A stretch of DNA of 64,000 nucleotides from Vicingaceae bacterium (GTDB lineage Bacteria > Bacteroidota > Bacteroidia > Flavobacteriales_E > Vicingaceae), in contig JAGYIE010000001.1 of assembly GCA_018402765.1 (NCBI GenBank), positions 806,001 to 870,000 of the forward strand, in the 5' to 3' direction. Position numbers and translations under genes: made by a program. Below, piece after piece: positions 8,567 through 32,379 of the stretch; the first letter of the stretch is position 1; each line of letters opens with the position of its first letter. Under the pieces are notes generated by a model. The model searched no databases. It worked only from the letters and a program-made list of their open reading frames with translations, and was not told where the DNA came from.

Positions 8567-10708
8567 TCAATCTCTAACACAGCGTACAGAAAAACCAAAA
8601 GCAGAATACCTTGAATCTTCTAGTCCTTTAGGACGGGCATCGTCATCATAACCCATTAAAAAATAACCATTGTTCGCATTCCACCATACGCCAAAATAGT
8701 TAGCGAAATAAAAAGTAGTATTTGATGGAGGGTCAAATGGATTATATTGTCTTTCATCCCAATAGCGATAGGCTCTAAAACCGCCAGGAAGACTTGAAAA
8801 GCCTGAATTATTATTTCCGTTAAGATTTTGGTGCCAACCTTTTCTTGATTTCAATAATTTTGAATAACTTTTAATTTGATGTGTAAATTGAACAAAGTCA
8901 ATCAGAGTGTTCCACTCCTCTTTACTAGGAATATGCCAACCGTCAGGACAAATGCATCTCTTATCATTTACCGATTGTAAATTGTAAAGTTTGCCGAACG
9001 AGGTATCGTTTGAAGAGTCATTTTTATAATACGACCAAGCTCCTTTTTTAGTTCTAGACCAACTATCATCGCTCTTGATATTAGCCAATTTATCCCCATT
9101 ACGAAATCTACTTGTTCGAAGATTTTCAGCCATCCAAACTTGATCGCCTATTCTAACAACTTCATATTGATTTCCATCAATATCTTTTAATAAGTCTAAA
9201 TCATTTTTATCAGAATTGGAATTTTGGTCTTGAGTTTTCTGTATTGATTTCATTACAGGCCTCTGCAAAATATAATTTTCTATTATACTTCCGTCATTAC
9301 TTGTCACGGACAGACTCCCTTTTTGCTCATTAAAAAATAGAGAAACTGTACAGAAGGGCGAAATTGTTGGAAACTGAACATCGGAAACAATCAGAGATAG
9401 TCGATCTGTCTTACCAAGCAACTTCCCATTGACATTAAACAGTGGCTGATTGTTTTTTATAAAGGTTATTGTTGAAATTTCTTGGAAGTTAGCTTGTCCA
9501 ATAGTAATTTTATCAAAATGAGCTTTAGGATTTACAACATTCCATGAACCACTAACTAAATTATTTATTGATTTTATTTTTTCAATAAGCCGATTCATGT
9601 CAACTTCAATTATTGAGGGTGAACGTAAAACGCTGATATCCTTTATCTCCAATAAGTCATCAATCAACAAACCATTCAAAACACCTGATTTAAAACTTAA
9701 GTCAATCTGTGCTCCACTTGAAAAGAATTCGTCTTTTATCAAATACAGAGACATTTGATATTCATCAATTGATTTAAAACGAATCATACCTTTAAAGTCT
9801 CGATAAATTCCTTCTAAGAAAATTTTACCTGTAACCGACTTTTTGACATCATCAAACTGAGAAAAATTTATGTATGTTTTATTATCCCCAAGAGAGCCTG
9901 CCCAATATCCTATTACATTTTTACCGAAATTCTGTTTGATGTTTGTTGTTTGCACAGGTGTTTCTAATTCGGTTACGGTTTCTATAATGGGTTTCCTTAT
10001 TCTTATAAATTTTACACTTTTTGGTTCAAACCGTGGCAAAGTAACAATCAAATCGTCAGTTTCAGACGAACTAACCACTAACTTATAATTTTCAATTTTT
10101 TTATCCGTAGGCATCTTAATATATACATTGTAAGAGCTGCCTTCTTTTTCCAATTTACTTATTAAGTTGTTTGACTCTTTAATTTCGAGCTCCAAATCAC
10201 TTGGAAACAACCTTACAACCAATAAAGCATCTGATACATTTGGTCCAAATGGTGTAATGAATGTACCCCTTTTCCTTTCGTTATCTGTGATATCAGACCA
10301 CTCCAATTCAGATTTTACCGTTACAGTATAATATTTTATTTCACCCTCTTTTAAGGCAGGAAGTGAGTTAGCATCCATTTGCTGTCCAAAATTCAAATAG
10401 GTAGGAACATCGTTGAAGATAACTGAGAATGCTTGTGAACCTGAGGGTACTCGAACGAAATATAAACCATTTTTAAATTCCGGAGGCGTTAAATTATCGG
10501 CACTTGAGTCAAAATTCAACTGCTCTGACGATTTGAAAATTAACATAGCCCCCCCCGAAAGCTTCCTTTTGTGTGGGATAGCAGATAAAGAATCCTCTGT
10601 TAATGTTAGTGAATACTGAGCAAAAATTTCATTGGAAATTATAAAAATAAAAACAAAAAAACTGAGGAAACCGTAAATCGTTGTTTTGTAAATGTCTTTA
10701 TAAAACAT
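8567..10708 (-). CDS. Secreted protein with C-terminal FISUMP domain; last gene of the tubulin-like operon
   Basis: A 713-aa protein with an N-terminal signal sequence (hydrophobic residues 12-29, likely cleavage after FAQ), a long middle part without a recognised domain, and a complete FISUMP domain from about residue 505 (IGDQVWMAENLRTSRFRNGD, then GKLYNLQSVN, CPDGWHIPSKEEWNTL, SGFSSLPGGFR, and GFSVRCVRD at the end). The central part contains two similar beta-rich halves (NVIGYWAGSL..., LVSGSWNVVN...). Exported by Sec, it probably acts in the periplasm or at the surface. Its start overlaps the upstream lipoprotein gene by 11 nt, placing it at the end of the operon that begins near 18614. 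Confidence 0.8.
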   Translation of the reverse strand: MFYKDIYKTTIYGFLSFFVFIFIISNEIFAQYSLTLTEDSLSAIPHKRKLSGGAMLIFKSSEQLNFDSSADNLTPPEFKNGLYFVRVPSGSQAFSVIFNDVPTYLNFGQQMDANSLPALKEGEIKYYTVTVKSELEWSDITDNERKRGTFITPFGPNVSDALLVVRLFPSDLELEIKESNNLISKLEKEGSSYNVYIKMPTDKKIENYKLVVSSSETDDLIVTLPRFEPKSVKFIRIRKPIIETVTELETPVQTTNIKQNFGKNVIGYWAGSLGDNKTYINFSQFDDVKKSVTGKIFLEGIYRDFKGMIRFKSIDEYQMSLYLIKDEFFSSGAQIDLSFKSGVLNGLLIDDLLEIKDISVLRSPSIIEVDMNRLIEKIKSINNLVSGSWNVVNPKAHFDKITIGQANFQEISTITFIKNNQPLFNVNGKLLGKTDRLSLIVSDVQFPTISPFCTVSLFFNEQKGSLSVTSNDGSIIENYILQRPVMKSIQKTQDQNSNSDKNDLDLLKDIDGNQYEVVRIGDQVWMAENLRTSRFRNGDKLANIKSDDSWSRTKKGAWSYYKNDSSNDTSFGKLYNLQSVNDKRCICPDGWHIPSKEEWNTLIDFVQFTHQIKSYSKLLKSRKGWHQNLNGNNNSGFSSLPGGFRAYRYWDERQYNPFDPPSNTTFYFANYFGVWWNANNGYFLMGYDDDARPKGLEDSRYSAFGFSVRCVRD

Positions 10709-11423
10709 AAGAGTATGTTAAACCTTGTATATCAATTAACTTAAATCCATTATTACTTTCAGAATCTATCAAAAATTTCAATTCTGTAATACTTCTTTTA
10801 TCTTTTTTGCTTTGAAGCTTAATTTCTCCAGTTATCTCATCAAAAGTCTGAACAATATAATTTTCAATTCTTACATTTCCAGATATGTTATCCTGATAAA
10901 TTGCACTATATAAATCATTTTCAGCTTTAAAAATTTTATAAAACTGAGTACTTCCGTTTTCATATTGAAACACATAAAGACCTAAATACCGAATAGGAAC
11001 TTCAGCAGCTCTTTCGATCTGCTTTTCATTGTTCATGTTCGCTTCTGATGAAGAATATAATTCTAAAGATGTACTTTCCTTATTCGAGCTACTATTTTTT
11101 CCATTGTTATTAATCTTTCCTATTTCGTTTCTTAAAGAATCCCTGCGAACTGACCACCATTCATTGTAAGTATAATATTGATTGCCTCCGTTCAAAAAAT
11201 GCTCCCAGTCGTCCATCTTCCTTTTTTCCTTCCACTCTTTGACCGATGGGTGAGTCAGGTTTTTCAATAAATCCAAAGCTCCAGATTTATCTCCTTGTTC
11301 AATTTTTGTATATATATCTATTTCTAAAGATTGTAATTCAACATTCTTCACGGAAGGATCTTCCGATGTTGTACATGAACTATAAAAAATGAATAAATAA
11401 AAAATAATTATGTAGCGTTTCAT
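10698..11423 (-). CDS. Lipoprotein of unknown function
   Basis: A 241-aa protein with a lipoprotein signal (hydrophobic residues 4-14, lipobox YSSC with Cys at 17) followed by TTSEDPS, which resembles the acidic/serine tail that sends Bacteroidota lipoproteins to the surface. The middle carries a low-complexity Asn/Ser stretch (around residues 108-130); the C-terminal 100 residues look beta-rich (RYLGLYVFQYENGSTQFYKI and following). It sits 1 nt after the NTF2-like gene and overlaps the FISUMP gene by 11 nt. I do not recognise a family. Confidence 0.7.
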   Translation of the reverse strand: MKRYIIIFYLFIFYSSCTTSEDPSVKNVELQSLEIDIYTKIEQGDKSGALDLLKNLTHPSVKEWKEKRKMDDWEHFLNGGNQYYTYNEWWSVRRDSLRNEIGKINNNGKNSSSNKESTSLELYSSSEANMNNEKQIERAAEVPIRYLGLYVFQYENGSTQFYKIFKAENDLYSAIYQDNISGNVRIENYIVQTFDEITGEIKLQSKKDKRSITELKFLIDSESNNGFKLIDIQGLTYSYVL

Positions 11424-11424
11424 A

Positions 11425-12423
11425 TCACTTCTTAATATTAAATTGTTCTAATTGAAATTTTTCAGCTTGTGATAAATTCTTGCCACCAACTTTGTCGGGT
11501 TGCCAAGTTCTAACATGAATTAGAGGCTTATCATCATCACTGAAATCAATTATGAGCAGCAAATAACCAATGTCACTATATCTTGTCGTATTCCAGCCCT
11601 GCATCATATTTACACCATAAATAGTTGGATATTTCTTATGCTGTTTTATTTCAATTTCTTCAAATTTTACGTTGATGTATGCATTTGAAGAAAAAATTCT
11701 TCTCAGTTTATTTATATACTCTTTTTTTGTTTGCTTTTGATATGTTACCGTCTGTTGTGGAAGAAATTGCCCAGATGCATCAGGCCGAGAAACTCTTACA
11801 ACCTTACCAGAGATAATAAGCGCATCTTCACTGAAAACAGTACTTAAATAATCAGCATCTTTCCGGTTGTAAGCGGTTCTAAAATTTTCAATAAAATCTA
11901 GGATTATTTGTCTTCGTCTGAATTCTGTTACATCGTTGCCCACATTGACCAATTCGTTGTATCTTCCTGTCTCAATGGATAGATAAATATTATCTATTAA
12001 ACCATTAGCATCAAAAATCAACACCAATTCCTGTTGTTTATCTTCCAAGGCTGCTTCCTCCATGAGAACAGGAACATTTCTAATTTCAAATCCACCTTGA
12101 GGTTTCTTTAACAGCCTTTCATCAATATTGGCGGAAGAGCAACTAAACCGGCTCATCTCCCACATAGAAAGTAATGATACTTGGGCATCTGAACTTACAA
12201 TACCCAATGGAAATCTCGGCTTTGCTTTTTTAGCTGCGGCAGAATTGATGGCAGACAAGAAAGTAGCAGCATTATTTTCTATTTTTTTTATCAACAAAGC
12301 GTTTTCACCCATCTCTATGCCCTTACCACTTAGTGTAACACGAATAGCTTCTTGTGCAGAAATAGTGTATGGGATTGTGATAAATAAAATAAAAAGGATT
12401 ACTGATTTTATAATTGTTTTCAT
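11425..12423 (-). CDS. Secreted protein with NTF2-like (SnoaL-type) domain
   Basis: A 332-aa protein with a cleavable signal peptide (residues 1-23, ending ISAQ). The C-terminal half (about 170-320) contains the pattern of an NTF2-like fold: FIENFRTAYNRKDADYLSTV, then VFSEDALIISG, then an extended beta region with HVRTWQPD. NTF2-like pockets bind small ligands or mediate dimerisation; the ligand is unknown. Spacing to both neighbours is 1-2 nt, so it is translated with the rest of the tubulin-like operon. The fold assignment is by motif appearance. Confidence 0.65.
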   Translation of the reverse strand: MKTIIKSVILFILFITIPYTISAQEAIRVTLSGKGIEMGENALLIKKIENNAATFLSAINSAAAKKAKPRFPLGIVSSDAQVSLLSMWEMSRFSCSSANIDERLLKKPQGGFEIRNVPVLMEEAALEDKQQELVLIFDANGLIDNIYLSIETGRYNELVNVGNDVTEFRRRQIILDFIENFRTAYNRKDADYLSTVFSEDALIISGKVVRVSRPDASGQFLPQQTVTYQKQTKKEYINKLRRIFSSNAYINVKFEEIEIKQHKKYPTIYGVNMMQGWNTTRYSDIGYLLLIIDFSDDDKPLIHVRTWQPDKVGGKNLSQAEKFQLEQFNIKK

Positions 12424-12425
12424 AT

Positions 12426-13577
12426 TTATTTGGTATTTTCCCTTTCAGCAAATAAATTCTTGATGTTGTCTGAAGGTATATTTGTATAAAGTTTTGCTTT
12501 AAGTATCATTTTTTCGCTTTGAATAAACACAAGGGGATCTGCACTTACGTATAGAAGATTAATGAAATTTAACTGGCGGTTGAAAATAATCAACGTACCA
12601 TCCAGCAACTTTGCTGAATTATTTTCTATACCAAAGTAAAGTTCATAATCGTTACTAAAAAACGCCAAAAAATCAGATAGACTTACCTCATAAGTCTCTT
12701 TTTCATCAGCATAAATTTTATGCTCTATGAATAGCCGAATATCTTGATTACCGTGTCCTGCAATAAGAAATGCATTGGTAAATGATTCCAAAGGATATTC
12801 GACGTCAAAAACCGGTATGCATTCATTGCCTGAACACCTGAAATAGGTATTTGACGAAATGGTCTTGAAGTAAGAATTGCCTATTTTTACTTTAATGTCA
12901 TCCCGATAAGGCTTTAATAAGGCACCATCGACAGTGAAGTGAAGATTGTGGTTAGTATTGTAAGCTTTTAGTGATTGAATCAGTTGTAGTGCGTATTCTT
13001 TTTTATCCATGCCGCTTACCACGTTATAATTGGCAGCAAATAGCAATGTTGAGGTACCCTTTGGTGAGCTTATGGTGGCCTGGTAATACAGACTATCCTG
13101 CATAATATGAAGCTCTTTTCCATCAGACAATAAAGAAGGCAGTATGGCTGATAGCTTTTCTGCACCCGGGGTATTAAATTGCTTGCCATTGATGAGCAGC
13201 GCTATTTTATCTTCCCTATTTTTTCGATCAATTACTGCCACATCGTTCCAAACAAAGTATTCAAGGTAGCAGCGCTCTATAAACGATAATACCGTGTGGG
13301 GATAAATTAAGTTGGCGTCAAAAGAAAATAAATCCAAGCCCAAATGACTCAGCTGACCTTGGCTATTAAACGATGCTTTAATCGGCATGGAATTCCCGTT
13401 GATTTGGCAGATACACTTATTTTCTATGCTGCGCGAAAGGGTGTTCTTACACTCTAAGGGCAATAAGGCAAATAGCTCATTTAAGCGATTGGAGGTAAAA
13501 GCATCTTGTGCTGACAATTTTGGACAAACTGTGGCACAAGAAAATAGAATTAAGAATAAGGCAAATTGCTTTCTCAT
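12426..13577 (-). CDS. Secreted protein of unknown function in the tubulin-like operon
   Basis: A 383-aa protein with an N-terminal signal peptide (MRKQFALFLILFSCATVCP, cleavage probably after LSAQ). An internal cysteine-containing segment (NKCICQINGN; later FRCSGNECIPVF) could form disulfides. No known domain is recognised; alternating hydrophobic residues suggest mostly beta structure. Its start overlaps the zinc-ribbon membrane gene by 4 nt, and the NTF2-like gene follows 2 nt after it. Given three further exported proteins downstream, it is probably part of the extracytoplasmic side of the same system. Confidence 0.65.
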   Translation of the reverse strand: MRKQFALFLILFSCATVCPKLSAQDAFTSNRLNELFALLPLECKNTLSRSIENKCICQINGNSMPIKASFNSQGQLSHLGLDLFSFDANLIYPHTVLSFIERCYLEYFVWNDVAVIDRKNREDKIALLINGKQFNTPGAEKLSAILPSLLSDGKELHIMQDSLYYQATISSPKGTSTLLFAANYNVVSGMDKKEYALQLIQSLKAYNTNHNLHFTVDGALLKPYRDDIKVKIGNSYFKTISSNTYFRCSGNECIPVFDVEYPLESFTNAFLIAGHGNQDIRLFIEHKIYADEKETYEVSLSDFLAFFSNDYELYFGIENNSAKLLDGTLIIFNRQLNFINLLYVSADPLVFIQSEKMILKAKLYTNIPSDNIKNLFAERENTK

Positions 13578-14254
13578 CTACCAATCATGATTACTTCTTT
13601 CACATTATTGCCTGCATCAAACAATTTACCCTGCACAGGTTTTCCTTCATAAAACTCACCCGTTAGGTAATCACCGGCTTCAGCCATGCGCTTTTTCAAA
13701 TCCTTTGGGGATATTTGGGTACTTTGTTTGTAGTACATCGTTCCCATTCCATGGGGCTTACCGTTAAGCACTTCTCCTTTGTAAGTATTACCATTTATAG
13801 TAAGCGTTTGTGTGCCTTTAGGGGCCGAACCATTGGAAGTTGCGGGTTGTGTTTTAACAGGCGCTGCTTGTTCGACTTTTACTGGTTCAGGGGTTGGTTC
13901 TGGTTCCTCCTCAACAACAACGGGATCAGGATCAACCTCGGGCTGTGTCTGTACTACTTCTGTGGGCTCTACTACCTCTTCTACCGCTGAACTTGGACGC
14001 ATGATGAAAAAGACTACGGCACCGATTACTAGTAATCCAGCAGCGATGGCTGCGATGAGTTTTATATTCAATGGCTTTTTAACATCGATTGTTTCCCAAG
14101 ATAATTCTGCTCCACAAGTATCACAATTTGATGGCACTCCTTCAGTTGCGAATTCATAGGCTGGAAAATCAAGGAAGTTTTGCTTAGTTAAACACCTTGG
14201 ACAACTTGAACCGTTATAGTTGTCATTTTTACAAACGAGCAATTTTTTCTTCAT
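13574..14254 (-). CDS. Zinc-ribbon, single-pass membrane protein with MORN-like tail
   Basis: A 226-aa protein with three visible parts. Residues 18-47 form a four-cysteine zinc ribbon (CPRC at 18-21, CDTC at 44-47). Residues 62-85 are one transmembrane helix. Residues 90-150 are a Pro/Glu/Val-rich linker of the sort that spans the periplasm. The tail holds one MORN-like repeat (YKGEVLNGKPHGMGTMYY). The predicted topology puts the zinc ribbon in the cytoplasm and the tail outside. It starts 4 nt after the tubulin-like gene and is a natural candidate to link a cytoplasmic filament to the exported proteins encoded downstream. That link is inference. Confidence 0.72.
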   Translation of the reverse strand: MKKKLLVCKNDNYNGSSCPRCLTKQNFLDFPAYEFATEGVPSNCDTCGAELSWETIDVKKPLNIKLIAAIAAGLLVIGAVVFFIMRPSSAVEEVVEPTEVVQTQPEVDPDPVVVEEEPEPTPEPVKVEQAAPVKTQPATSNGSAPKGTQTLTINGNTYKGEVLNGKPHGMGTMYYKQSTQISPKDLKKRMAEAGDYLTGEFYEGKPVQGKLFDAGNNVKEVIMIGR

Positions 14255-14258
14255 TTTT

Positions 14259-17200
14259 TTAGTTTTTTAATATTTCAATTGCCTTTAAACCTGCGTCCTT
14301 AAATCTTTTTACTGTTAGATTTAAAGGATTATTGTTAAAAGACACCTGTATTTTATTTAATTCACTTTTAATAGCTTCTATTGCAGAATCGTGAGTACTT
14401 ATGTGTTTGTATTTTTCCTTTAGAACATTAGATGTTTCGCGCATTAGTAATTTGGCATCTTCTTCACTAATAGTATCTAACGATTCATTTAAGTTATGAC
14501 CTAAAATTATAGGTTCTTGCCCTATAGCCGTTTCCTTCATTAAACACAAAACATTTTTTCCTGTTTCAGGATGTTCGGCATCTAACAGTACACCAGTTGC
14601 CTTAGCTAAAAGCATATAAGGCATTAATTCGTTTTGCATATTTTCTGCACGCTTCTTTATTTCCTTTTCAGAGGGCTTAAATAAGCCATAAATAATAGAT
14701 TTATGTTTATTCTCTTCTTTTAGTGAATCCATATAAGTTGAACCTTCTTTAACTTTAGTTGGAAAAAAGTTTACATCTTCTGTATGCAAAGTAAAATAAG
14801 CTTTTTCCTCGCCTTGGTTAGCGATAAGAGCATCATACTTTTCCTTAAAAACTTTTACATTCTCAAACTCTCTAATTTGAGCACCTCTCTTAAGGTTTAT
14901 TAATAAAATTTCATTAGGACTACCCCCGCTTGCAACCTCAACATTTGAGGCTTCTTCACTGAACAAATTTTTGATTTGTTTTACAAAATCCTCATCATCT
15001 TTTAAATCAGGTAGAACAACTAACAATGCCCTCTCGTCCTTTCTTGTTCCATCAATTTGAGCACTATCAAAAATCGATGAAAGCGCAGCTTGTTTAATTA
15101 ACTCCTTTATTTTATCTCTAAGTTTATCTAATTGACCTGAGTATTCATCTCTCAATTTTTCAAGTATGTTTTCATTAGAAATTTTTTCATCGGAAATTTT
15201 TTCTAATAATTTCTCATCACTAAAAAACTCATTTGCAAGCTGCATAGAATGATGAACAAGCTGTGTTTGTATCTCATCAATATTTACTTTTTTGAGTTTT
15301 TCGAAATAATTTCCTGCATCTTTTGCAATTAAATATAATTGCTTACGCAATGAGGAAATTCTTTCGTCCACAATCTCATTGTTTTTTTTCAATGCTTCGC
15401 CAAAAGCGTTTATCGCTTTTGGATCGTAATATTTAATGAGTACTGAAGCTCCTTCTTGTTTTTCATCAAGTACACAACGGCTCAAACATTCCGTTTGGAA
15501 GGTTTCTTTAATTTGATTAAAATAAGCATTCACCGAGTTGATGTTACTTATTAAATTATTGAATATAGGAATCATTGCATCAATTAATTCCTTCCCATAT
15601 TCCATTCCTTTATTTTTTGTTTTCAGTATTAAAATCTGTGCAACATTATTTTGAGTGTCTTTAATCTTGCCCTCACCATCATTGAAAATATTACTTAAAA
15701 AGCCTGGACGCCAATCACTTTTTATATGTTGAATAGCTTGCTCTAGTGTTTTTAAAGTTTGATTGTTCTTCGAAATATCAGCATCAAATTTCTCTTTTTC
15801 ATCTTTCAAGTATTGTAAAACTGCTTTGGTAATTCCCAATACATCTTCAATTGAGTATTTTCCACCATACCAATCTTCAAAAAGTTTTTCTTCAAGATTA
15901 TTTACTATTTTAGCAGCTAAGTTATTTTTATCTTTTGTTTTCGTGTCATAAAACGACAAAACACCACCATCTTGCCCAACAGCTCTAAAGCCATTTTGAA
16001 AATAGCGATTACCCCAAATTAAAATAGCATCCAACCATTGCTCTTTTACCACAGGTCTTCCATCATAGTTATCGCCCTGTTTAACCTTGTTTGTGATGGA
16101 GCTCATAACTTCAATAAAAGTATTATCAATACCCTTATCCTTTATCTCGTTTTTATACTGTCCTAAAATATCAAAAGAAAGTATCAAATGATCCCGCGTG
16201 ACATTAAACTTAGTTAAAAACTCATTGTTTGCAACAATTGAATTATAGCTTTGATTTCTACTTATATCGCGATAACCTTCTGCTCGGTTAAAATTATTAT
16301 ACAAAAACTGAAGGACTGCTTGATAACCAAATAAATAAGCAAAGTATTCTTTTATTTCCTGCTGAGGTATTGCAAATCTTTTATACCCAAAAGCATAAAA
16401 CTTATTAGCGAAAGCAAAACCACTTCTATCCACTTCATCAGGGTTACTCATTTTCTCAGCAGCCAAAACAACTTGTTCTATGTTATTATTAGTTACAACT
16501 GTCGTTTGAAAAATGAATTCAGATAGATTAATGAAAAGTGACCCTAATGGTTTTCCCTTAGTTACTAATGGAAAATTCGCTTCATTTTCATCAGCAACTA
16601 AATAACATACATTAAATGGTCTATCTTTCATTTCAATTTTCTCATCCTCCGTCAATAGATTATTTGAAACATCGTAAGGAGCAAAATCACCTACAGCAAG
16701 CGCATTTAATTCCAATAAAGCAGCATAACCATTAGCATGATAATAAGAGGTATAATTAAAAGAAGGTGTTCGTTCTGGTAAAACGCAATACAAATTGATC
16801 AAAGCATTTGGATAGAGTTTCCTAATAATGCAGGTTACATCAACAATAGAACCGCTTCCTGTGCCGCCAGCCAATCCAGCTACTATATGAAATTTAGTTC
16901 TTTTTGAGTCTTTTTCTAAATTTGATTTAACAGAGTTAAGCGTTTTGACAAAATCTTGAGAACGAATCGCAATAAAAGATCTACCTAACTTTCTTCTTTG
17001 ATTAGCTTCCTGACCTGCTTTTGCCGAATCTCCTAATAAATCAGACCATTGTTTTTTGTTACCAATCCAATATTTCAAATTAGGGTAATCATTAGCATTT
17101 TCAATGTAAGGAGACATGTCTCTAGAAACGATAGGAAACGTGTTTGCTTTTCCAAGACCTACGCTTGTGCCCATAATATCCCATTCTGGTCCATTCATAT

Positions 17201-17357
17201 TCAAAGCTTCCGTATCTGAATCAACGAAAATGCAATCCACTCCAAATTTAGTTGGATCTGTTTCTCCATTTTTATTCTCAAATAATAGCCTTTTAAAGCC
17301 AGCTATTGTTTTCCCCCCGGTTCCCCCGAGTCCTATGATGATGTGGTTGTCTGCCAT
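14259..17357 (-). CDS. Tubulin/FtsZ-like GTPase (Tubulin_2, PF13809 type), 1032 aa
   Basis: The N-terminal third has the nucleotide-binding features of the FtsZ/tubulin fold: IGLGGTGGKT (residues 8-17), the loop IFVDSDTEALN (43-53) in the place of FtsZ's NTDAQAL, a GQEANQRRKLGR segment (115-126), and the glycine box AGLAGGTGSGS (160-170). The clear T7-loop acid needed for GTP hydrolysis in FtsZ could not be located by eye. About 600 further residues, largely helical and charged, follow; there is no signal or membrane helix. Bacterial proteins of this type (described as FtsZ-like family 1) were proposed to act in membrane remodelling rather than division. It lies in an operon with DUF2971 and zinc-ribbon membrane genes. 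Confidence 0.85.
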   Translation of the reverse strand: MADNHIIIGLGGTGGKTIAGFKRLLFENKNGETDPTKFGVDCIFVDSDTEALNMNGPEWDIMGTSVGLGKANTFPIVSRDMSPYIENANDYPNLKYWIGNKKQWSDLLGDSAKAGQEANQRRKLGRSFIAIRSQDFVKTLNSVKSNLEKDSKRTKFHIVAGLAGGTGSGSIVDVTCIIRKLYPNALINLYCVLPERTPSFNYTSYYHANGYAALLELNALAVGDFAPYDVSNNLLTEDEKIEMKDRPFNVCYLVADENEANFPLVTKGKPLGSLFINLSEFIFQTTVVTNNNIEQVVLAAEKMSNPDEVDRSGFAFANKFYAFGYKRFAIPQQEIKEYFAYLFGYQAVLQFLYNNFNRAEGYRDISRNQSYNSIVANNEFLTKFNVTRDHLILSFDILGQYKNEIKDKGIDNTFIEVMSSITNKVKQGDNYDGRPVVKEQWLDAILIWGNRYFQNGFRAVGQDGGVLSFYDTKTKDKNNLAAKIVNNLEEKLFEDWYGGKYSIEDVLGITKAVLQYLKDEKEKFDADISKNNQTLKTLEQAIQHIKSDWRPGFLSNIFNDGEGKIKDTQNNVAQILILKTKNKGMEYGKELIDAMIPIFNNLISNINSVNAYFNQIKETFQTECLSRCVLDEKQEGASVLIKYYDPKAINAFGEALKKNNEIVDERISSLRKQLYLIAKDAGNYFEKLKKVNIDEIQTQLVHHSMQLANEFFSDEKLLEKISDEKISNENILEKLRDEYSGQLDKLRDKIKELIKQAALSSIFDSAQIDGTRKDERALLVVLPDLKDDEDFVKQIKNLFSEEASNVEVASGGSPNEILLINLKRGAQIREFENVKVFKEKYDALIANQGEEKAYFTLHTEDVNFFPTKVKEGSTYMDSLKEENKHKSIIYGLFKPSEKEIKKRAENMQNELMPYMLLAKATGVLLDAEHPETGKNVLCLMKETAIGQEPIILGHNLNESLDTISEEDAKLLMRETSNVLKEKYKHISTHDSAIEAIKSELNKIQVSFNNNPLNLTVKRFKDAGLKAIEILKN

Positions 17358-17381
17358 TTTATTTATTGTTTATTTATTGTT

Positions 17382-18215
17382 TTAGTTATTTTTACTAGCA
17401 TCTACAAAATTCAAACTGAAACTGCGACTATTCATTACAGCCAGCTTGATATTGCAATGCGGGTAAAATGTTTGGATTAATTTAGTGATGGTGTTTTTAT
17501 CATTCTCTGTGATTTTACAACCGAGAATCATGTCTTTCAATACTTTGGGTTTAAATGAATAATTGCCTTTTCGGTTCTTGAACACCCTTACTTCACCTTC
17601 GTAGCGGCACTCATCAGATTTGGTGAAGAACATTTCATTAACAAACTCATTTTTATCATCCAAGCAATCGTACTCAGAATATTCTTGGGTGTACCTTATC
17701 GCTTTAGCCGTTGAGAAAAATGTAGTATCCTCAAGCACATCAAACTTTAAGCCCCCTTTGTGGGCATCGGCATAGTGCGCCCACATCAGCAGATTGTCGC
17801 AGTTGGTAAGAAAGCAGGCAAGACTTTTCCTCCTCACTATTTTTTTTGCCGCTTGATTAACAAGGAATTCAAAATCTGCATCCGAGATTTGTTTAGTATT
17901 GATATTTCCCAATTCTCGGGCACTAAAGATTCTCAGGAGATGATTATCAAAATAAGATTGCTTGCGCGTCAGGCTTGATTTCTTTAAGCTCATATTGATA
18001 TCGCAATCAAAAGGGTCGTAAAAATCCTGTGGATTAGAAAACCAAACGAGACTGTTGATTAAACTATCATAAAGAAAACTATTTACCGATTTCATTCTAT
18101 AAACAATTTGGGGCAGTTTTTTGTCATTAACCATTTGTGAAAACAGTCTTTTGAATCTAGGCGCTATGGTATTATATGCTTTATTGGTTGACTCAAAATT
18201 CAATATATCTTTCAA
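17382..18215 (-). CDS. DUF2971 domain protein
   Basis: A 277-aa soluble protein with the DUF2971 pattern: VYRMKSVNSFLYDSLI, then LVWFSNPQDFYDPFDCDI, then SLACFLTNCDNLLMWAHYAD followed by HKGGLKFDV, and a late ECRYEGEVRVFK. DUF2971 proteins are widespread, often in accessory or defence-associated regions; no biochemical role is known to me. It is 24 nt upstream of the tubulin-like gene and 6 nt downstream of the first lipoprotein gene, hence in the same operon. Confidence 0.82.
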   Translation of the reverse strand: MKDILNFESTNKAYNTIAPRFKRLFSQMVNDKKLPQIVYRMKSVNSFLYDSLINSLVWFSNPQDFYDPFDCDINMSLKKSSLTRKQSYFDNHLLRIFSARELGNINTKQISDADFEFLVNQAAKKIVRRKSLACFLTNCDNLLMWAHYADAHKGGLKFDVLEDTTFFSTAKAIRYTQEYSEYDCLDDKNEFVNEMFFTKSDECRYEGEVRVFKNRKGNYSFKPKVLKDMILGCKITENDKNTITKLIQTFYPHCNIKLAVMNSRSFSLNFVDASKNN

Positions 18216-18221
18216 TCCAAA

Positions 18222-18614
18222 TTAGTTTACTGTGTCGTTATCACCCATAAAAAAGGTTTCATACATTCCCTCTAACTGCTGGCTCATATTCTTAAGCTCT
18301 TTTTTAAAATCCCCTATCTTTTTTGTTGCTTTTAGTGCGTAGTATTTGCCAATTAATTTATTGTTTTCTTCTATTTCCTCGTGAGTAAAATCTGATTCAT
18401 TAACTTTCATCTCAGATTTTAATTCCTCAATCTGCTTATCATATTTCTCCCAATCTTCCTTATTAATTGTATATGCATCTTTTTCTATTTTCGAAATCAC
18501 ATCTCCAATAGTCTCTTTCAAGCTATCTGCTTTTTGTTTGGCAGTGCAAGAAACCATTAATGCAACAAAGACAATAAGCACTACAAAAAAGTGTAAGCGT
18601 GAAATCTTCCTCAT
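18222..18614 (-). CDS. Small helical lipoprotein, first gene of the tubulin-like operon
   Basis: A 130-aa protein with a lipoprotein signal (hydrophobic residues 8-21, lipobox LMVSC with Cys 23) and an otherwise entirely helical, charged body that should form a short coiled coil. The segments TINKEDWEKYDKQIEELKSE and NKLIGKYYALKATKKIGDFK resemble small Bacteroidota lipoproteins (perhaps those annotated DUF6565; not certain). It opens the eight-gene operon running down to 8567; the gap upstream is over 500 nt. Confidence 0.68.
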   Translation of the reverse strand: MRKISRLHFFVVLIVFVALMVSCTAKQKADSLKETIGDVISKIEKDAYTINKEDWEKYDKQIEELKSEMKVNESDFTHEEIEENNKLIGKYYALKATKKIGDFKKELKNMSQQLEGMYETFFMGDNDTVN

Positions 18615-18790
18615 AATGATACTGTTATATAATAGTTAATCCTTTCCGGCCCATTCCTTTTTTATCTTGTAGGTGTGTAATTTCTTAAAAACCCAAATTC
18701 TTCAAGACTCATACCAAAACATTCACATTATGTCATTTTTTAAAAAATAAATACCCTCGAGTCTAAAAAATTGACTTTCACTTTTACTAC

Positions 18791-19965: not shown

Positions 19966-20140
19966 TAACGACTAGGTCAACCCAACTTCCCTAAAAAATT
20001 TAAGTTTCGTTTTTTTAAGCTGAAAAAATATAACCCGCTTAATATGGTCCAATCAATACAGCGATGATCGCTTTATTAAATTCACTTTTTATGCTTATGA
20101 TGCAATCGGAGTAACTGTTGGAATTCCCTTGATAGACTTT
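19966..20140. repeat. Direct repeat, copy 2
   Basis: The intact partner of 18791-18965. It covers the 3' end of the repeat-protein gene (stop at 20041-20039) and its downstream flank. Confidence 0.75.
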
Positions 20141-20498
20141 TTGTCCTTCGAACGTAAAAAAACAATCGGAATAACTTGTTGAGTTGCCTTTATAGATTTT
20201 TCGATTGTGCAATGTGCAGAGGCAGTCTGAATAACTGGTGGAATTGCCTTTATAAATTTTATCCCCATTTATAAAATAAAGGCACCGAATAGCTAGTGGA
20301 GTTTCCCTTATAGATTTTTTCATTGCTGATGGTATAAAAGCAATCGGAATAACTCGTGGAATTTCCCTTGTAAATCTTATCTCCACTTATGGTGTAAAGG
20401 CAATCAGCGTAACTCGTTGATTTGCCTTTGTATATTTTTTGTTGAGCATTCATTACAAAAAAGATGGCTAAAAAGATTGAGAAGGCTAAAAACTTCAT
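20039..20498 (-). pseudogene. Secreted protein of about six 20-residue KIYKGNSTSYSDC repeats, broken by a 2-nt deletion
   Basis: The 5' frame (20498 down to about 20285) gives a signal peptide (MKFLAFSIFLAIFFVMNAQ) and nearly three repeats of the form KIYKGNSTSYSDCxYTIxxx. The remaining repeats and the end SEFNKAIIAVLIGPY are in another frame. In the third repeat the plus strand reads GGCACCGAATAG where sister repeats have GGCAATCGGAATA, a loss of 2 nt near 20283-20287. Joined, the product would be about 150 aa. Such repeats resemble proteins annotated as '5-fold beta-flower' in Bacteroidota (recalled, not certain). Whether this is decay, sequencing error or slippage between 60-nt repeats cannot be told from sequence alone. 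Confidence 0.75.
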
Positions 20499-23668: not shown

Positions 23669-23767
23669 TTACCTACTCTGTTCAAAGCTTTTCGGCTTAC
23701 GCTTATGAATTATAACGATTAACATACCTGATATTCCCAAAAAAGCTGTTCCAATTATGCTATTGTT
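23669..23767 (-). pseudogene. Possible remnant of a membrane protein C-terminus
   Basis: A 32-codon frame with no ATG near its beginning reads a hydrophobic helix (GTAFLGISGMLIVIIHKRKP) and a charged tail ending before the zinc-finger gene by 18 nt. It may be the left-over end of a small membrane protein gene, or chance. Confidence 0.3.
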
Positions 23768-24651: not shown

Positions 24652-27516
24652 TTAAAATGGTAAATCATCATCGTCATCATTATCATATTCAATATCAGGT
24701 TGCTCGGGAATATCGAATCCGCCTGCAGCATTTAATTCGGGGCCTAATATTTCGCTGATTGTTTCTGAATCTAAACGCTGTGTATATACCTTGGCACTTT
24801 CATAACCTTTTTCGAGTAAATAATTCAGGAATTGATTGGCATAAGCCTCCAGGAGGGGCTCTGATGTGTATGGGTTATTGCAAACAAAACCTTCGCAATC
24901 CTGCTGAAATTCAACAGAGGAAACATGCATCTTAAAGTAAAATTGATACCCCTGAGAATCATTTTCATGATGCTTAAACAAAGCAATTGATAAATAGGAT
25001 AACAAAGGCCGCTGCCAATCTACCTCAACCTCAAATGATTGCTTTTCTTTAAAGAAATCATCGTTTTTGTAATTTGTAAGAAACTTTGTGACAACATTAT
25101 TGGGTTCATCACATAAGTAGAAAATATTTAAACTAGCCGGACTGAATTCTTTATCCTTGAAAAAGTACGAATCAGATTTGATCATTTCTTTGTACATTTT
25201 GAAGGTTATATCAAATGTTTTGGAAATATCGCTTATGCTGCCTAAAACGCTTTTAAGTTGGTTTTGAATATTTTGCTGTAATTCTTCTTCCGTTTTTGGC
25301 ACAAGAAGCATCAAACAAAGTGAGTTCCAAGCGTCATTTTCTCCAAATACCAATTCAAGAAGAGCTACATTTTCTTGTTGATTTTCATGAAATTGTGCCG
25401 ATAATGCTTGCCAAAACGCTCCCTTTTTGGCGTTGTCCTCTTGTAATGGGTCAGTAGTTAAAGCGTGGGTTTTTAGTGTGTTTGTATCTTTATTGTATTG
25501 CCAAAGTGCCCATGATTGATCCATTCTTTGCAAATAACCTTTATTTTCATCAACCAAACGAAAATCACGACATCCAATTCCGTCTATTAAAGTGCCTTTT
25601 TCATCCAAGACATCAAAAGCTTGATTTCCAAAGGGCGATAAAACAGAAAAATATTGAAAATCCTCTAAATTAAAATAGGAAAGATACTGCATCGGTAGCT
25701 TGAAGTTGCCATATTCATCCTTGATGTTTACCAAAGAGGTTTTTTTTATTGATGCATCGAGAGTTTCCAAGGCATACTTTCTTAATTCATTATCACTTAA
25801 CTCGGTCAATCGAAGGCCTTGCAATTCTGATTTTCCGCCCCGAAATGTCGAATTATTGATATATTGACGCAGCATTTTTGCATCATTTATTTCACTCCAA
25901 GAACACTTAGTTTTGGTTGGTGATGAATAGTTTATATCTGAATTCGGCACAAAATACTCCATGCCATAGGCTTTATATAATTCTGGAAATGCCCCCAAAT
26001 GACGAACAACTTGTGGAACAGCATCCATGGGAATTAAATTATTTACAGCAAGCTCATAAAATAAATCAGTAAATAAATCGGGATATTTCATTACCATATC
26101 AGCTAAAGCTTTAGAGCATATTTTTTCACCATCTCTATACCCATATTGAAATTCCGAAAGAAGCTTAATAAAATCCTGAAGTTCAGTGATTCGTTTTTTT
26201 ATAGAATGATTGTTTGGGTCAAAATAGGCAAACGTATAATACCAAGATAAATAATAATTGACCTGTCTTTTAGGAAATATATTTAACCCCTGAACTAACT
26301 GGCTATATTGATAATAAAAATCCTCAAAAGGCAAATCACTTGCGAACAAGACTTCTAATTTAGCATTTACATCAAGCTCCTCTGGGCTGAGTTTATCGAC
26401 AAAAGGCAATAAATTTTCAGCCATTTCTATTAAGCCCTGTGAATCATAGCGGCGCTTTTCGTAGTCATCATCATGTCGACTACCGCCAAATGGATCTGCA
26501 TAGTCTTCCTCACACTCGAAATAATATTCTAAGGATTGAAGTGAAACACCTGTACGTTTTAAATGAGGATAAACACTATATAAGGCTCCTATTTTTCTTT
26601 TATCATTCAAGCCCATATATTGCAAAAATGTTAAAAGACGCATCGGCAGTGTTTTATTATGCTGTGTAGCGTTGTCCCAAATAACAAAGTAACGCTCTTT
26701 AGATTGCTCAAAAGTAAAACTACAAATAGGATTTAACACTAAAGTAGATTTATTGCTATTTGACATATTGCTTGCTAAGTGCCACATGTAGTGTGGGTCA
26801 CTTTTAAGTTTTGGTGAAATATATTGTCCGGCATCAAGATTTTGATTTAAAGCAGCTAGTATAATTTCAAAGTTTTTTGTTAGATCTTTTGATGCGTAAT
26901 TTAATGCAGCCCCCTGTTTCTTCACTACTTCAAGAATAAAACGGTAGTCATTTTTCAATTTTGATGATGCAAACTGCAAATTTCTAACATCAGATTTTAT
27001 AACTTCTAAAATAATAGTCGGATCACTACGCAACTCTTCTGATGCAGCTTTTAGAGACCACGCTTGATTTCTCATCGCAGCTAAAACGATATCCTTATTG
27101 TTTTTTAGTCTTTCAGACGCAAAATTCAAGGCTATACCCGCAGCTTTTACAGCTTTCATAATAATTTCATAGTCATCACATAACTCATTAGATATGAATT
27201 GAAGTCCAAGAATGTTTCCACTTTCAAGCGAAGCTAAAATAAAGCCTCTATCGTTTTTAAGGTGTTCAGAGACATATTGCATGTCTCGACCATCCTTTTT
27301 AACGGCAGCTAATGCAATTTCTCTATCCCTAAGGAAGTTATCTGTCAATAATTCCAAAGAACAGGCCTGCATACTTATAGCTTTTAAAACAAAATATCTA
27401 TCGTTTCGAAGTTCATTTGAGAGATTTTCAAATTTTTGTTGGCCACTTTTGAGTAGCTGGAATGCAGTTTCTTTAGAGTATTTCTTAAATCGCATAATTA
27501 TGTTTAAAAAATTCAA
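24652..27516 (-). CDS. DUF4116-repeat protein with large C-terminal domain and SSB-like tail
   Basis: A 954-aa cytoplasmic protein. Residues about 15-250 are eight or nine helical DUF4116 repeats of about 24 residues (pattern LKNDRGFILASL..GLQFIS). Residues about 265-954 are homologous to the whole of the next protein in the operon (27522-29507): compare RLLTFLQYMGLNDKRKIGAL with DLLTFLQYWGIDNKEKVSLL. Both end in strings of Asp followed by LPF (here DDDDDLPF), the form of the C-terminal tip by which single-stranded DNA-binding protein SSB recruits partners. No enzymatic motif is visible. The stop is 2 nt before the LprI-like gene, and the upstream gene ends 5 nt away. Confidence 0.78.
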   Translation of the reverse strand: MNFLNIIMRFKKYSKETAFQLLKSGQQKFENLSNELRNDRYFVLKAISMQACSLELLTDNFLRDREIALAAVKKDGRDMQYVSEHLKNDRGFILASLESGNILGLQFISNELCDDYEIIMKAVKAAGIALNFASERLKNNKDIVLAAMRNQAWSLKAASEELRSDPTIILEVIKSDVRNLQFASSKLKNDYRFILEVVKKQGAALNYASKDLTKNFEIILAALNQNLDAGQYISPKLKSDPHYMWHLASNMSNSNKSTLVLNPICSFTFEQSKERYFVIWDNATQHNKTLPMRLLTFLQYMGLNDKRKIGALYSVYPHLKRTGVSLQSLEYYFECEEDYADPFGGSRHDDDYEKRRYDSQGLIEMAENLLPFVDKLSPEELDVNAKLEVLFASDLPFEDFYYQYSQLVQGLNIFPKRQVNYYLSWYYTFAYFDPNNHSIKKRITELQDFIKLLSEFQYGYRDGEKICSKALADMVMKYPDLFTDLFYELAVNNLIPMDAVPQVVRHLGAFPELYKAYGMEYFVPNSDINYSSPTKTKCSWSEINDAKMLRQYINNSTFRGGKSELQGLRLTELSDNELRKYALETLDASIKKTSLVNIKDEYGNFKLPMQYLSYFNLEDFQYFSVLSPFGNQAFDVLDEKGTLIDGIGCRDFRLVDENKGYLQRMDQSWALWQYNKDTNTLKTHALTTDPLQEDNAKKGAFWQALSAQFHENQQENVALLELVFGENDAWNSLCLMLLVPKTEEELQQNIQNQLKSVLGSISDISKTFDITFKMYKEMIKSDSYFFKDKEFSPASLNIFYLCDEPNNVVTKFLTNYKNDDFFKEKQSFEVEVDWQRPLLSYLSIALFKHHENDSQGYQFYFKMHVSSVEFQQDCEGFVCNNPYTSEPLLEAYANQFLNYLLEKGYESAKVYTQRLDSETISEILGPELNAAGGFDIPEQPDIEYDNDDDDDLPF

Positions 27517-27521
27517 TTAAA

Positions 27522-29507
27522 CTAAAAAGGTAAATCATCATCATCCGCATCGTTATCTCGCTCGGGGATATCAAAGCGACCTTCTGCATTTAACTCAATG
27601 CCTATAAGTTCGCGGATTGAATCTCGCCCTACAAATTGAGTATAGGCATTCACTTGTTTGTAGTTTTTATCTAGCAAATAGCTTAAAAATTCATTCCCGT
27701 ATGCTTCCAAATCACCTTTAGTAGCAAATGGGTTTCTCTTAATGAACGCCTCACAGTCTTGCTGAAAAACTTCTGCCGCGGCATTCATTTGAAAATGGAA
27801 TTGATTAGATAAAGTATAATGTCCGCGCCACTGGGATAGACCCAAAGTAAAATGTGAACTTATCGGACGTTCTCTATATAGTTCATAATTTAATTCTCTT
27901 GAAAAGTCGTCATTTTGGTAATGCTTTCTATAACCTATTTTTAATTCCTTTGTCAAACCATCATGTAGAACAAAATAATTTAAGCTTGGAGTACTAAACC
28001 CAATTTGCTCGTTTGAATTAAGCAGCTCCTTATAAAGTTCAAAAGCCGCCTCATAAGTATCCAAAAGGTTTACTCCACTATTTCGGAGACTAATCAAAGC
28101 CCTTACAATAGCATTTCTTATACCGTCTTCTGTTGAGTGATTCAACATAGTCAAATATAGAGAATACATATCGTCTGCTGTTCCAAACTCCAGTTCGAGA
28201 ATTTCGTATGTGTCAAGTTGATTAATCTTTTGATTTTCGATAATCGACCGCTGAAAACGCTCTTCTTCTTGTTCCCAAACACCTTCTTCATAGGGATTAT
28301 CAATAGCAACATCGTGCTTGACAATATCTTGGGTTTCTTCATCAAAAAACCAACGCACCCATCGCAAGCTATCGGCATTTTGCAAGTAGGCAATGTTCTC
28401 AGATAAGAAATAAAAATCATAATAACCGCCATCGTCAATAACCTTTCCACACTTTGTAACGATATGGTAGGATTGATAACCAAATGGAGCTAAAAAATGA
28501 AATCGGTTTTGCGGGTTTATAACATAATCACTGGCATACATCATTGGCAAAAGATAATTACCATTCCTGTCTTTAAAATTAACTATTTGTGCATTATAAC
28601 AATCGTTCTCTTGAAGCAAGTCTTTTAATTCCGCTTTAGAAAGTGATACAATGTCAATTCCTTTTAAAGGATTACAATCAGCATAAAATGTATATAAATT
28701 AAAAAATTGCCTTAAATGGCGAATATCATCTACTTTTTCGCACAAAGGTTCACTTTGGTCATACAAATTATAATCTATAACGGTATTGGGAAGATACGTT
28801 TCCATACCCAGCTGAATAAATAGTTCTTGAATGGCTTCATCATTTCTTAAAGCATGAGGTATGGCATCTATAGCCATTAAATTGCGTTTTCCCAATTCAA
28901 GAAAACAAGCAGCCATCAGCTTAGGAAAGCGAGAGAACAGACGTTCTTCCAAGCAAGAAAATACATTGTTTAACTTGCAATTCAAGTCATCTTGACTAAT
29001 ACCATTTTGTTGGGCCAGATTGGATAAAATCTGATGAAAATTATGGTCTGTATAATTTAAAATATCCCATGCGCGTCTCCAAGAAAGGTAAAAGTTCGCG
29101 GGCCGTTTAGGTGCAGGATTGAGCCCTTCAATCAGTTGTTTATATGCTGAATAGAATTCAATAAAGGGCAAATCCTCCGTAAACAAATTCTCCAATTGAT
29201 GAATCACTTCCTTTTCTTGCTCTGAAGGTGTATCCGCATCAAGTTCTATATACTCATAACAAAGTTGTTTGATGTATTCGGGTAAACTATTAAATGAAGA
29301 ATCCTTTAGTGAAGTCCCTGTTTCTAGTAATTGGGGATAGATAGAATACAGTAAACTTACTTTTTCTTTATTATCAATACCCCAGTATTGCAAAAAAGTT
29401 AGTAAGTCCATTGGCACTGTTTTCGGTAGCCCCGAAACGGTATCTAATATGAAAAAGTAACTGTTTTTACTTTGCTTATCTTGAAATGTGAAAATTGGAT
29501 TTGCCAT
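27522..29507 (-). CDS. Paralogue of the DUF4116-repeat protein without the repeats, SSB-like tail
   Basis: A 661-aa cytoplasmic protein corresponding to the C-terminal two thirds of the 954-aa neighbour, with shared motifs along the whole length: LTFLQYWGIDNKEKVSLLYS near the start, RPANFYLSWRRAWDIL, RHLRQFFNLYTF, GNYLLPMMYASDY, and close to the end ELIGIELNAEGRFDIPE followed by the acidic DDDDLPF tip. No nuclease, ATPase or membrane motif is recognised. It is encoded 5 nt upstream of the 954-aa gene and arose by duplication. The tip resembles SSB-Ct and could dock on SSB-interacting proteins. Confidence 0.75.
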   Translation of the reverse strand: MANPIFTFQDKQSKNSYFFILDTVSGLPKTVPMDLLTFLQYWGIDNKEKVSLLYSIYPQLLETGTSLKDSSFNSLPEYIKQLCYEYIELDADTPSEQEKEVIHQLENLFTEDLPFIEFYSAYKQLIEGLNPAPKRPANFYLSWRRAWDILNYTDHNFHQILSNLAQQNGISQDDLNCKLNNVFSCLEERLFSRFPKLMAACFLELGKRNLMAIDAIPHALRNDEAIQELFIQLGMETYLPNTVIDYNLYDQSEPLCEKVDDIRHLRQFFNLYTFYADCNPLKGIDIVSLSKAELKDLLQENDCYNAQIVNFKDRNGNYLLPMMYASDYVINPQNRFHFLAPFGYQSYHIVTKCGKVIDDGGYYDFYFLSENIAYLQNADSLRWVRWFFDEETQDIVKHDVAIDNPYEEGVWEQEEERFQRSIIENQKINQLDTYEILELEFGTADDMYSLYLTMLNHSTEDGIRNAIVRALISLRNSGVNLLDTYEAAFELYKELLNSNEQIGFSTPSLNYFVLHDGLTKELKIGYRKHYQNDDFSRELNYELYRERPISSHFTLGLSQWRGHYTLSNQFHFQMNAAAEVFQQDCEAFIKRNPFATKGDLEAYGNEFLSYLLDKNYKQVNAYTQFVGRDSIRELIGIELNAEGRFDIPERDNDADDDDLPF

Positions 29508-29546
29508 GGTTTAGGATTTACTATTATGGATTACTGCTTTTTTATT

Positions 29547-30452
29547 TTATTCAAAATTTGCTTCATTGTTTACACTGTATAATTCTTGAAAATCACCTCT
29601 ATTCAAATGATAAAAGCTTATACGTTCTAAAGATTGAGGCAATACTCCTTGCAACCCGGCTATCACCTCTTGATAATTACCATTCAACCAAGGACAAAGC
29701 CCCAAATGTTTGATTTGATGCTGCTCACAGTATATTAATACTTCATCAAAGGTCTTGCCTTTTAGGTTGAATACTTTGGATTTTGACTCAAAGAAATCGC
29801 TAATGGACTGGCTGTTATAGGCAGCATCTCCGGCAAGCGTTGATGGATTATATGATAGGCCTATAGCGTCTAAACTTACCTCATCATCCCAAATACTTCC
29901 GTGAATAATGTTTAGCTCAACTCTTTGATTAATAATAGAAATATTTCGAGTTTGGGTAATTCTTTTCATCATATAAACATGTCCATAGCTGCCTGAATTG
30001 TGTTTTTGACTTTCAGTAAAAATTTTGGGATCGACAAACCCAGAATCGCCATCTTTTAATTCTTTAACTCTGTAAAAGCCCCAATCAACATTTTTATACC
30101 AATCTCGTTCCCAAAATTCATAATGAGAAAAATCACAGATCAATATAAATTCATCCTTTAAGATCGGACTTAAATACCCCATCACTTCATCTGAAAGTAT
30201 TGCGTAACCACCTCCCCCCTCGAGCAATCCCTCATTTAACAAGACTAAATAATCTATTTTTATGCCGCGCAATTTTAGCTCATCAATAGCTACTAATGCA
30301 TCCTTTTCTATCCATTCTGCATTTGAAGGGATGTTCTCATAAGAACTAGTATATTTCAAATCATTTTTCTCCACAAAAAAGAGTTTATCAAATGGAAGTT
30401 TGGAATATGCATCAAGGTATGGGCCTGCCGCGAGGTATAAGAGCGTTTTCAT
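29547..30452 (-). CDS. Rossmann-like (methyltransferase-like) protein, paralogue B
   Basis: I place the start at ATG 30452 (MKTLLYLAAGPYLDAY), because the paralogue upstream begins the same way and an earlier start would overlap that gene. The 301-aa product has an N-terminal Rossmann-like half (LLYLAAGPY, then KLFFVEKNDLKYT, IDYLVLLNEGLLEGGGGYAI) that resembles a methyltransferase core but lacks a convincing GxGxG. Its C-terminal half (VELNIIHGSIWDDEVSLDAI, then a helical FDEVLIYCEQH, then ERISFYHLNRGDFQELY) has the order of strands of a macrodomain, though without the canonical binding loop. No function can be assigned. It starts 2 nt after paralogue A. Confidence 0.65.
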   Translation of the reverse strand: MKTLLYLAAGPYLDAYSKLPFDKLFFVEKNDLKYTSSYENIPSNAEWIEKDALVAIDELKLRGIKIDYLVLLNEGLLEGGGGYAILSDEVMGYLSPILKDEFILICDFSHYEFWERDWYKNVDWGFYRVKELKDGDSGFVDPKIFTESQKHNSGSYGHVYMMKRITQTRNISIINQRVELNIIHGSIWDDEVSLDAIGLSYNPSTLAGDAAYNSQSISDFFESKSKVFNLKGKTFDEVLIYCEQHQIKHLGLCPWLNGNYQEVIAGLQGVLPQSLERISFYHLNRGDFQELYSVNNEANFE

Positions 30453-30454
30453 AA

Positions 30455-31609: not shown

Positions 31610-31761
31610 AAAAGGTATTTGTTTATTTAACGAGTGAAATACATAATGTTCCCACATTTACGCGTTACAGATGGCCACTCAAAAAAATATCAGCCTCAAA
31701 AAAATACTCAATTCGTTCAAAATCGATGTTAATTCAATCTATATATTACTTTTTAAATAGC

Positions 31762-32340: not shown

Positions 32341-32379
32341 CCTTGGGAATTTATTCGTTTACAATCGTTTTTATATTAA

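Follow-up and report, generated by a model that had tools for sequence, protein, structure and literature searches.

What can a tubulin-like protein do in an operon with membrane and exported proteins, and which parts of such an operon are inherited together? The question is raised by eight minus-strand open reading frames at 8567-18614 of a 64,000-nucleotide (nt) stretch from a Vicingaceae bacterium (contig JAGYIE010000001.1, positions 806,001 to 870,000; the whole stretch is called the window here). An interpretation made from the letters alone, the sequence-only reading, had described these frames, and they are present as it placed them, neighbours being 1-24 nt apart or overlapping by 4 and 11 nt. 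It had also joined all eight into one complete trans-envelope machine. The tubulin, its membrane adaptor and the exported partners bear this out; the eight genes as a single conserved machine do not. The main new result, which that reading did not contain, is the exchange of the tubulin together with the zinc ribbon of the adjacent membrane protein. The genes concerned, and the segment proposed to be exchanged, are the following (lengths in amino acids, aa; TM, transmembrane).

14259-17357, minus strand: TUB, a 1032-aa FtsZl1/Tubulin_2 protein, assigned from PF13809, the AlphaFold2 (AF2) model and the match to CetZ; the model predicts a nucleotide-binding tubulin part at aa 1-352, a helical/coiled-coil insertion at aa 353-774 and a second tubulin domain that starts at about aa 775
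13574-14254, minus strand: zinc-ribbon/TM/MORN adaptor, assigned from Pfam and alignment; zinc ribbon aa 1-60 (14075-14254), single TM helix at about aa 66-84 (14003-14059), Pro/Glu-rich linker, MORN-like end aa 158-176
12426-13577, minus strand: g4, exported 383-aa protein, conserved partner
11425-12423, minus strand: g3, exported 332-aa protein with a possible NTF2-like domain, conserved partner
14059-17305, minus strand: proposed exchanged cassette, which runs from about TUB codon 18 through the adaptor zinc ribbon up to the TM helix, delimited by steps in nucleotide identity

Two CxxC pairs and one hydrophobic helix agree with the zinc-ribbon and TM parts of the label first given to the adaptor, and the MORN repeat just missed the Pfam cut-off (22.2 versus 22.5 bits). 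The zinc ribbon is predicted to be cytosolic and the MORN end to lie on the periplasmic side. In NCBIfam the adaptor weakly matched GltJ (20 bits against a cut-off of 450), probably through its composition (TM helix and Pro/Glu-rich linker), and this match was not used.

Exchange of the tubulin and the zinc ribbon

Among the Prevotella loci, pairs of operons whose g3 proteins are at least 80% identical were of two kinds: in 31 pairs the TUB type was shared (TUB 61-98% identical) and in 26 it differed (22-26%). The zinc ribbon followed TUB, with 61-100% identity in same-type pairs versus 31-44% in different-type pairs, while identity in the periplasmic part was similar. The change takes place at the membrane helix. 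In different-type pairs adaptor identity was 30-43% over the 40 residues that precede the TM start and 41-89% over the 110 that follow, and in same-type pairs 71-98% before and 43-75% after. A Mantel test on 20 loci gave rho 0.93 for tubulin and zinc ribbon (p = 0.001), versus 0.07 for tubulin and the periplasmic part and 0.07 for tubulin and g3. Because the tubulin co-varies with the zinc ribbon and not with the exported proteins, these comparisons show, at the level of sequence, that tubulin and zinc ribbon have been exchanged as a unit in Prevotella, with the border at the membrane helix.

The same borders were seen in the DNA. Two loci of the same type (L091 and L088) aligned without a break through the tubulin, and two of different types (L091 and L090) aligned in the gene before the tubulin and again only from just before the TM helix. 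The tubulin tree and the tree of g3 plus g4 are in conflict, and forcing the envelope grouping of L086, L088 and L097 on the TUB tree was rejected (p = 3e-7). In an enlarged set of 55 loci there were 12 TUB types, and in pairs with g3 at least 70% identical the TUB identities were bimodal (67 pairs at 20-29%, 8 at 30-49% and 118 at 50% or more). Types span genera, as when a Parabacteroides tubulin (L076) groups with those of L184 and L186. These data show for Prevotella discrete tubulin types in operons that are otherwise orthologous and usually single-copy. Homologous recombination would explain the exchange most simply, with one conserved border in the start of the tubulin gene and the other in the membrane segment of the adaptor. 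A swapped inner part and a nearly constant outer part would be the pattern expected of arms-race-like selection.

The window's own locus was compared with its closest relatives, two loci from other families (L040, which is also L055, and L043, which is also L056). Identities to these were 70-78% for g3, 72-73% for g4 and 78-95% for the periplasmic/MORN end of the adaptor, versus 22% for TUB and 24-28% for the zinc ribbon. Nucleotide identity to L055 was 85% over TUB codons 1-20, then about 45%, and it recovered to 67-70% at the adaptor TM segment (aa 61-80) and 73-94% at the MORN end. The exchange of a 3.3-kb cytosolic cassette in the window operon is thus strongly suggested, on account of these sharp steps and by analogy with the Prevotella loci (tree test p = 0.072). 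An invertible or shufflon-like switch was rejected, as no inverted repeats of at least 16 nt were found at 13400-18700 and the genome has one PF13809 gene and no second.

The conserved unit and its genomic setting

Scanning genome contigs with g3 gave 468 related loci, and the best 79 were compared; scanning with the tubulin alone gave no hits. A tubulin was present in 32 of the best 79, nearly always in the order tubulin, adaptor, g4, an exported protein of about 250 aa, g3, and the exported g4/g3 pair stood without a tubulin in the other 47. The adaptor family was found in 34 of the 35 TUB-positive loci of the g3-anchored set and the g4 family in 73 of 81 loci, and the order TUB, zinc-ribbon adaptor, g4, g3 recurs in more than 50 loci, so that the operon is no chance arrangement. 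In the two relatives L040/L055 and L043/L056 the genes run as in the window, from tubulin through adaptor, g4, g3 and lipoprotein g2 to the FISUMP protein, and in two more distant genomes tubulin, adaptor and g4 are followed by a further exported protein and then by g3. A tubulin-anchored sample of 37 loci from one genus contained the complete set of adaptor, g4, g3 and the ~250-aa protein in 22 and a partial set in none. The refuting condition named with the sequence-only reading, tubulin homologues without the membrane and secreted genes, thus had a split outcome, with the adaptor and exported set in 22/37 loci and other architectures in 15/37, of which 11 had no member of the set and 4 likewise had none, their tubulin being uncalled by the profile used.

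An eight-gene unit is rejected by this comparison. The conserved unit is the tubulin, the zinc-ribbon/TM adaptor and the two exported proteins g4 and g3, and it is one subtype of a broader family. In the other architectures exported proteins carry vWA-like metal-site sequences, recognised by eye, with a Pfam vWA match in L216. In the related locus L044 the TUB gene is followed by a zinc ribbon-PBP-OmpA protein, and an adaptor of zinc ribbon and TM helix with interchangeable periplasmic parts may for this reason be a wider feature of the family.

Further arrangements were observed beside these. A second Prevotella architecture (L191:4202-12285) comprises an exported vWA-like protein, a tubulin of about 930 aa and a protein of about 1150 aa with a papain-family protease domain. 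A membrane protein of about 200 aa (cluster C7, e.g. L090:3005-3649) is encoded just upstream of the tubulin in 26/35 loci; it too occurs in discrete types, which are loosely tied to the tubulin type. The tubulin-free exported pair adjoins exported Sel1/TPR proteins, or caspase-domain and CHASE2 proteins. At L132:4538-10870 (and in L121, L127 and L129) the g4/g3 pair follows CHASE2, exported Sel1-caspase and DUF4384-like proteins, and loci of this kind are a second uncharacterised system with the same exported pair.

The remaining genes of the operon and the island around it are as follows.

10698-11423, minus strand: g2, lipoprotein, 39-43% identical to its counterparts in L040/L043
8567-10708, minus strand: g1, exported protein with a C-terminal FISUMP domain (PF09603, 121 bits)
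17382-18215, minus strand: g7, DUF2971-like (PADLOC PDC-S31), accessory
18222-18614, minus strand: g8, small lipoprotein, 41% identity, common to L040/L055 (one genome)
5073-39855, no strand: genomic island containing the operon, recognised from flanking genes that are adjacent elsewhere

The lipoprotein g2 and the FISUMP protein g1 are common to the window and the two relatives only, and g8 to the window and L055 only. The DUF2971 gene g7 is in neither L055 nor L056; it had no homologue in the compared loci and was found in the window alone. Relative to the two relatives g1 is 41-42% identical, with a conserved N-terminal part (up to 76%) and a variable FISUMP part (blocks of 10-24%). Signal peptides and lipoboxes were recognisable in the sequences of the exported proteins and lipoproteins. 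The FISUMP label given from sequence alone was borne out by the PF09603 score, and two other labels fared less well. For g3, NTF2-like is a less secure label, its Pfam matches all being sub-threshold (best E 0.002); for g7, DUF2971 fell below the Pfam cut-off, yet the protein strongly matched the PADLOC candidate PDC-S31 (147 bits). The AF2 model of g4 (predicted local distance difference test score, pLDDT, 88) had a best VIA Z of 6.5 in the fold search, and the weak NTF2-like resemblance of its C-terminal half (Z 6.5) was not used as evidence.

The island measures 34.8 kb. Its flanking genes lie 1.6 kb apart in a genome of the same genus (G001), where the island is absent, and 2 and 11 bp apart in two other genera (G016/G004). 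PF13809 was found in 0/36 other genomes of the window's genus and family. Full-length members occurred in 7/395 Bacteroidia (the window genome counted in), 9/395 Bacteroidota and 41/249 genomes of one Prevotella genus. TUB had no match in phages, and one distant tubulin (26% identical) is on a Paraburkholderia megaplasmid; g3 had no match in plasmids and g4 none in viral contigs.

Several other island features were recorded. A gene at 36393-39548 encodes a helicase/PLD-type protein that scored 746 bits against the PADLOC models of type IV methyl-directed restriction enzymes. A TPR protein with a CHAT-like protease domain, recognised by eye (33101-35779), adjoins a sigma-70-like gene pair (31792-33132). 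Two paralogous pairs of 954/661 aa (DUF4116 repeats in the first) and 326/400 aa are encoded at 24652-31657, and their homologues also adjoin the tubulin operon in L040/L055. A DUF805b cis-regulatory RNA (46.6 bits) was detected at 23670-23705 on the minus strand, and a short open reading frame at 20039-20386 has repeated IYKGNSTSYSDC-like units.

Predicted fold of TUB and relation to described systems

The first assignment of the 1032-aa protein to PF13809 was confirmed with 146 bits against a curated cut-off of 27. G-loop residues 9 and 11-14 and the GGTGSG motif (residues 164-169) were invariant in 26/26 aligned relatives. No FtsZ_C domain (PF12327) was found in TUB; the genome's sole PF12327 match is a separate, conventional FtsZ gene on contig C9. 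Sequence searches with TUB, g3 and g4 found no solved structural relative.

Structure prediction, one of the checks put forward with the sequence-only reading, gave a tubulin fold. The AF2 model, built on the alignment of the 26 relatives, had a mean pLDDT of 82, and its closest solved folds were CetZ and tubulin. VIA-align gave Z 26.2 to CetZ (314 of 360 residues aligned, root-mean-square deviation 3.6, model range 2-852) and Z about 24 to alpha/beta tubulin (up to 363 residues, model range 2-895). Predicted helices at 503-548 and 560-626 form a long coiled coil past the GTPase domain. Because almost all of CetZ and tubulin was aligned, and because an H7-like helix lies at 332-352, the modelled TUB must have the full tubulin fold, with both domains, split by a helical/coiled-coil insertion of roughly 420 residues; the boundaries of domains and insertion are inferred from the aligned ranges. 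The likeness to CetZ and tubulin is one of predicted fold (Z 26 and 24). Unlike them, TUB has this insertion between its tubulin domains, and identity is only about 11-16%.

By protein family the operon is a subtype of the FtsZl1/Tubulin_2 systems. The earlier statement that no system with this gene set was described is too strong, given two published proposals. Operons of FtsZl1, vWA and OmpA were proposed in 2010 by Makarova and Koonin (PMC2875224). FtsZl1 proteins as described there have, like TUB, an N-terminal FtsZ-like domain, a long coiled coil and a C-terminal domain. Their operons encode exported and TM proteins, and the genomes typically have a conventional FtsZ as well, as is the case here. 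The paper reports no confident elements beyond helix H5 and no similarity of the C-terminal domain to tubulin; the present model recovers both. The operon here differs from the 2010 description in having the adaptor, g4 and g3 in place of vWA, P-loop GTPase, kinase and OmpA genes. Among the eight genes Pfam found no vWA domain, even with E values up to 1 allowed, and no P-loop GTPase, protein kinase or OmpA-family gene; in none of 17 genomes with this type of locus did PF13519 match a gene at the locus or next to it. Some Prevotella loci have a kinase gene upstream, and OmpA occurs only in the relative L044.

The second proposal, by Kaur et al. in 2020 (PMC7159879), concerns tubulin-containing GTPase-centric (DO-GTPase/GAP1-N2) conflict systems of Firmicutes and Actinobacteria. 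Shared features are a tubulin fused to a coiled-coil/helical domain, membrane-proximal zinc ribbons and TM segments, and mobile, diversifying neighbourhoods. Here, unlike in those systems, no DO-GTPase, GAP1, FNIII or vWA was found, and the zinc ribbon is on the adaptor, not on the GTPase; the TRAFAC-type DO-GTPase and GAP1 had no Pfam match among the eight genes, although Pfam may not model every component. A literature search, which did not extend to supplements, found neither the gene set nor the cassette exchange; the 2010 sequence set contains a Bacteroides caccae member, and some of these genes may be listed there. The sections of the 2010 paper that the analysis covered say nothing of cassette exchange.

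Proposed function and alternative explanations

Overall, we consider it probable, with some reserve, that the locus is an FtsZl1/Tubulin_2 subtype in which an exchanged cassette of tubulin and zinc ribbon works on a constant envelope module. The cytosolic tubulin-fold GTPase would bind the zinc ribbon of the single-pass adaptor; a direct contact of the two is suggested because exchange moves both together. On its periplasmic side the adaptor would join an exported complex built on g4 and g3, as operon conservation suggests, and GTP-dependent assembly of the tubulin would switch or recruit this complex. A limited number of very different types of the cytosolic half pass between lineages while the envelope half stays, as is shown in Prevotella and strongly suggested for the window operon. 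Most likely the tubulin would be targeted by, or would recognise, a variable agent such as a phage or parasite factor. A more specific version of the model is doubtful in our judgement, namely that tubulin and zinc ribbon form a specificity cassette, exchanged like the specificity genes of restriction enzymes, kept in long-lived alternative forms by selection from phages or other invaders and connected by a single membrane helix to an envelope effector complex that does not vary.

Several observations weigh against the model. A tree holding the window TUB with L055 and L056 was not rejected (p = 0.072). No phage or plasmid copy of the operon was found, and PADLOC had no match for TUB, adaptor, g3 or g4. 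The window's g7 is a defence candidate, yet lies outside the conserved set. The loci come mostly from metagenome bins, and pairs of loci are not independent.

One alternative, possible if unlikely, is a conflict or immune system, in which the tubulin senses intracellular invaders, its type sets specificity and the exported complex is an effector that damages or closes the envelope. The discrete types kept across genera with exchange, the single copy and the patchy presence (9/395 Bacteroidota, 41/249 in one genus) would fit, as would the type IV restriction-like gene on the island, the exported pair beside a caspase/Sel1 gene and CHASE2 elsewhere, and the assignment of other tubulins to predicted conflict systems (PMC7159879). 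The conserved set, however, has no recognisable toxin, nuclease or pore, its core is without a PADLOC match, and the exported pair is common without a tubulin.

It is also possible, if unlikely, that the operon is a housekeeping machine for envelope remodelling or trafficking, as the 2010 authors and the sequence-only reading proposed, and that the types are functionally equal and their exchange neutral or a matter of physiological tuning. The conserved exported and TM partners, the zinc ribbon-PBP-OmpA protein after TUB in L044 and the predicted tubulin fold are consistent with this. The very patchy presence and the island location would be unusual for a housekeeping part, and so would types that are exchanged, persist for long and are each strongly constrained.

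That the tubulin merely evolves faster than its exported partners, with no exchange, is very improbable. The unrejected tree of the window TUB with L055 and L056 (p = 0.072) would agree with it. Plain fast evolution is disfavoured because TUB is often the most conserved operon protein inside a type (95% between L088 and L091, versus 60% for g4), and within types it is up to 91-98% identical where g4 is 60-80% identical. Together with the bimodal identities, the tree conflict (p = 3e-7) and the sharp DNA borders, this refutes rapid drift for the Prevotella loci. A comparison of paralogous operons instead of alleles is hardly credible and was rejected: 2/249 genomes of the Prevotella genus do have two well-separated full PF13809 genes, but the 14 genomes behind the compared loci have one copy each (14/14).

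Tubulin homologues are usually among the slowest-changing proteins of the cell. Under the favoured model of an exchanged cassette on a constant envelope module, a tubulin here persists in several strongly divergent types, which replace one another in the same operon with a crossover at the membrane. The prediction of a complete tubulin fold is also relevant to the question, raised in 2010, whether FtsZl1 proteins retain the second tubulin domain. The natural swaps predict a specific contact of tubulin and zinc ribbon, mark off the variable cytosolic module from the envelope module that stays constant, and offer a way to probe the role of the uncharacterised FtsZl1 family.

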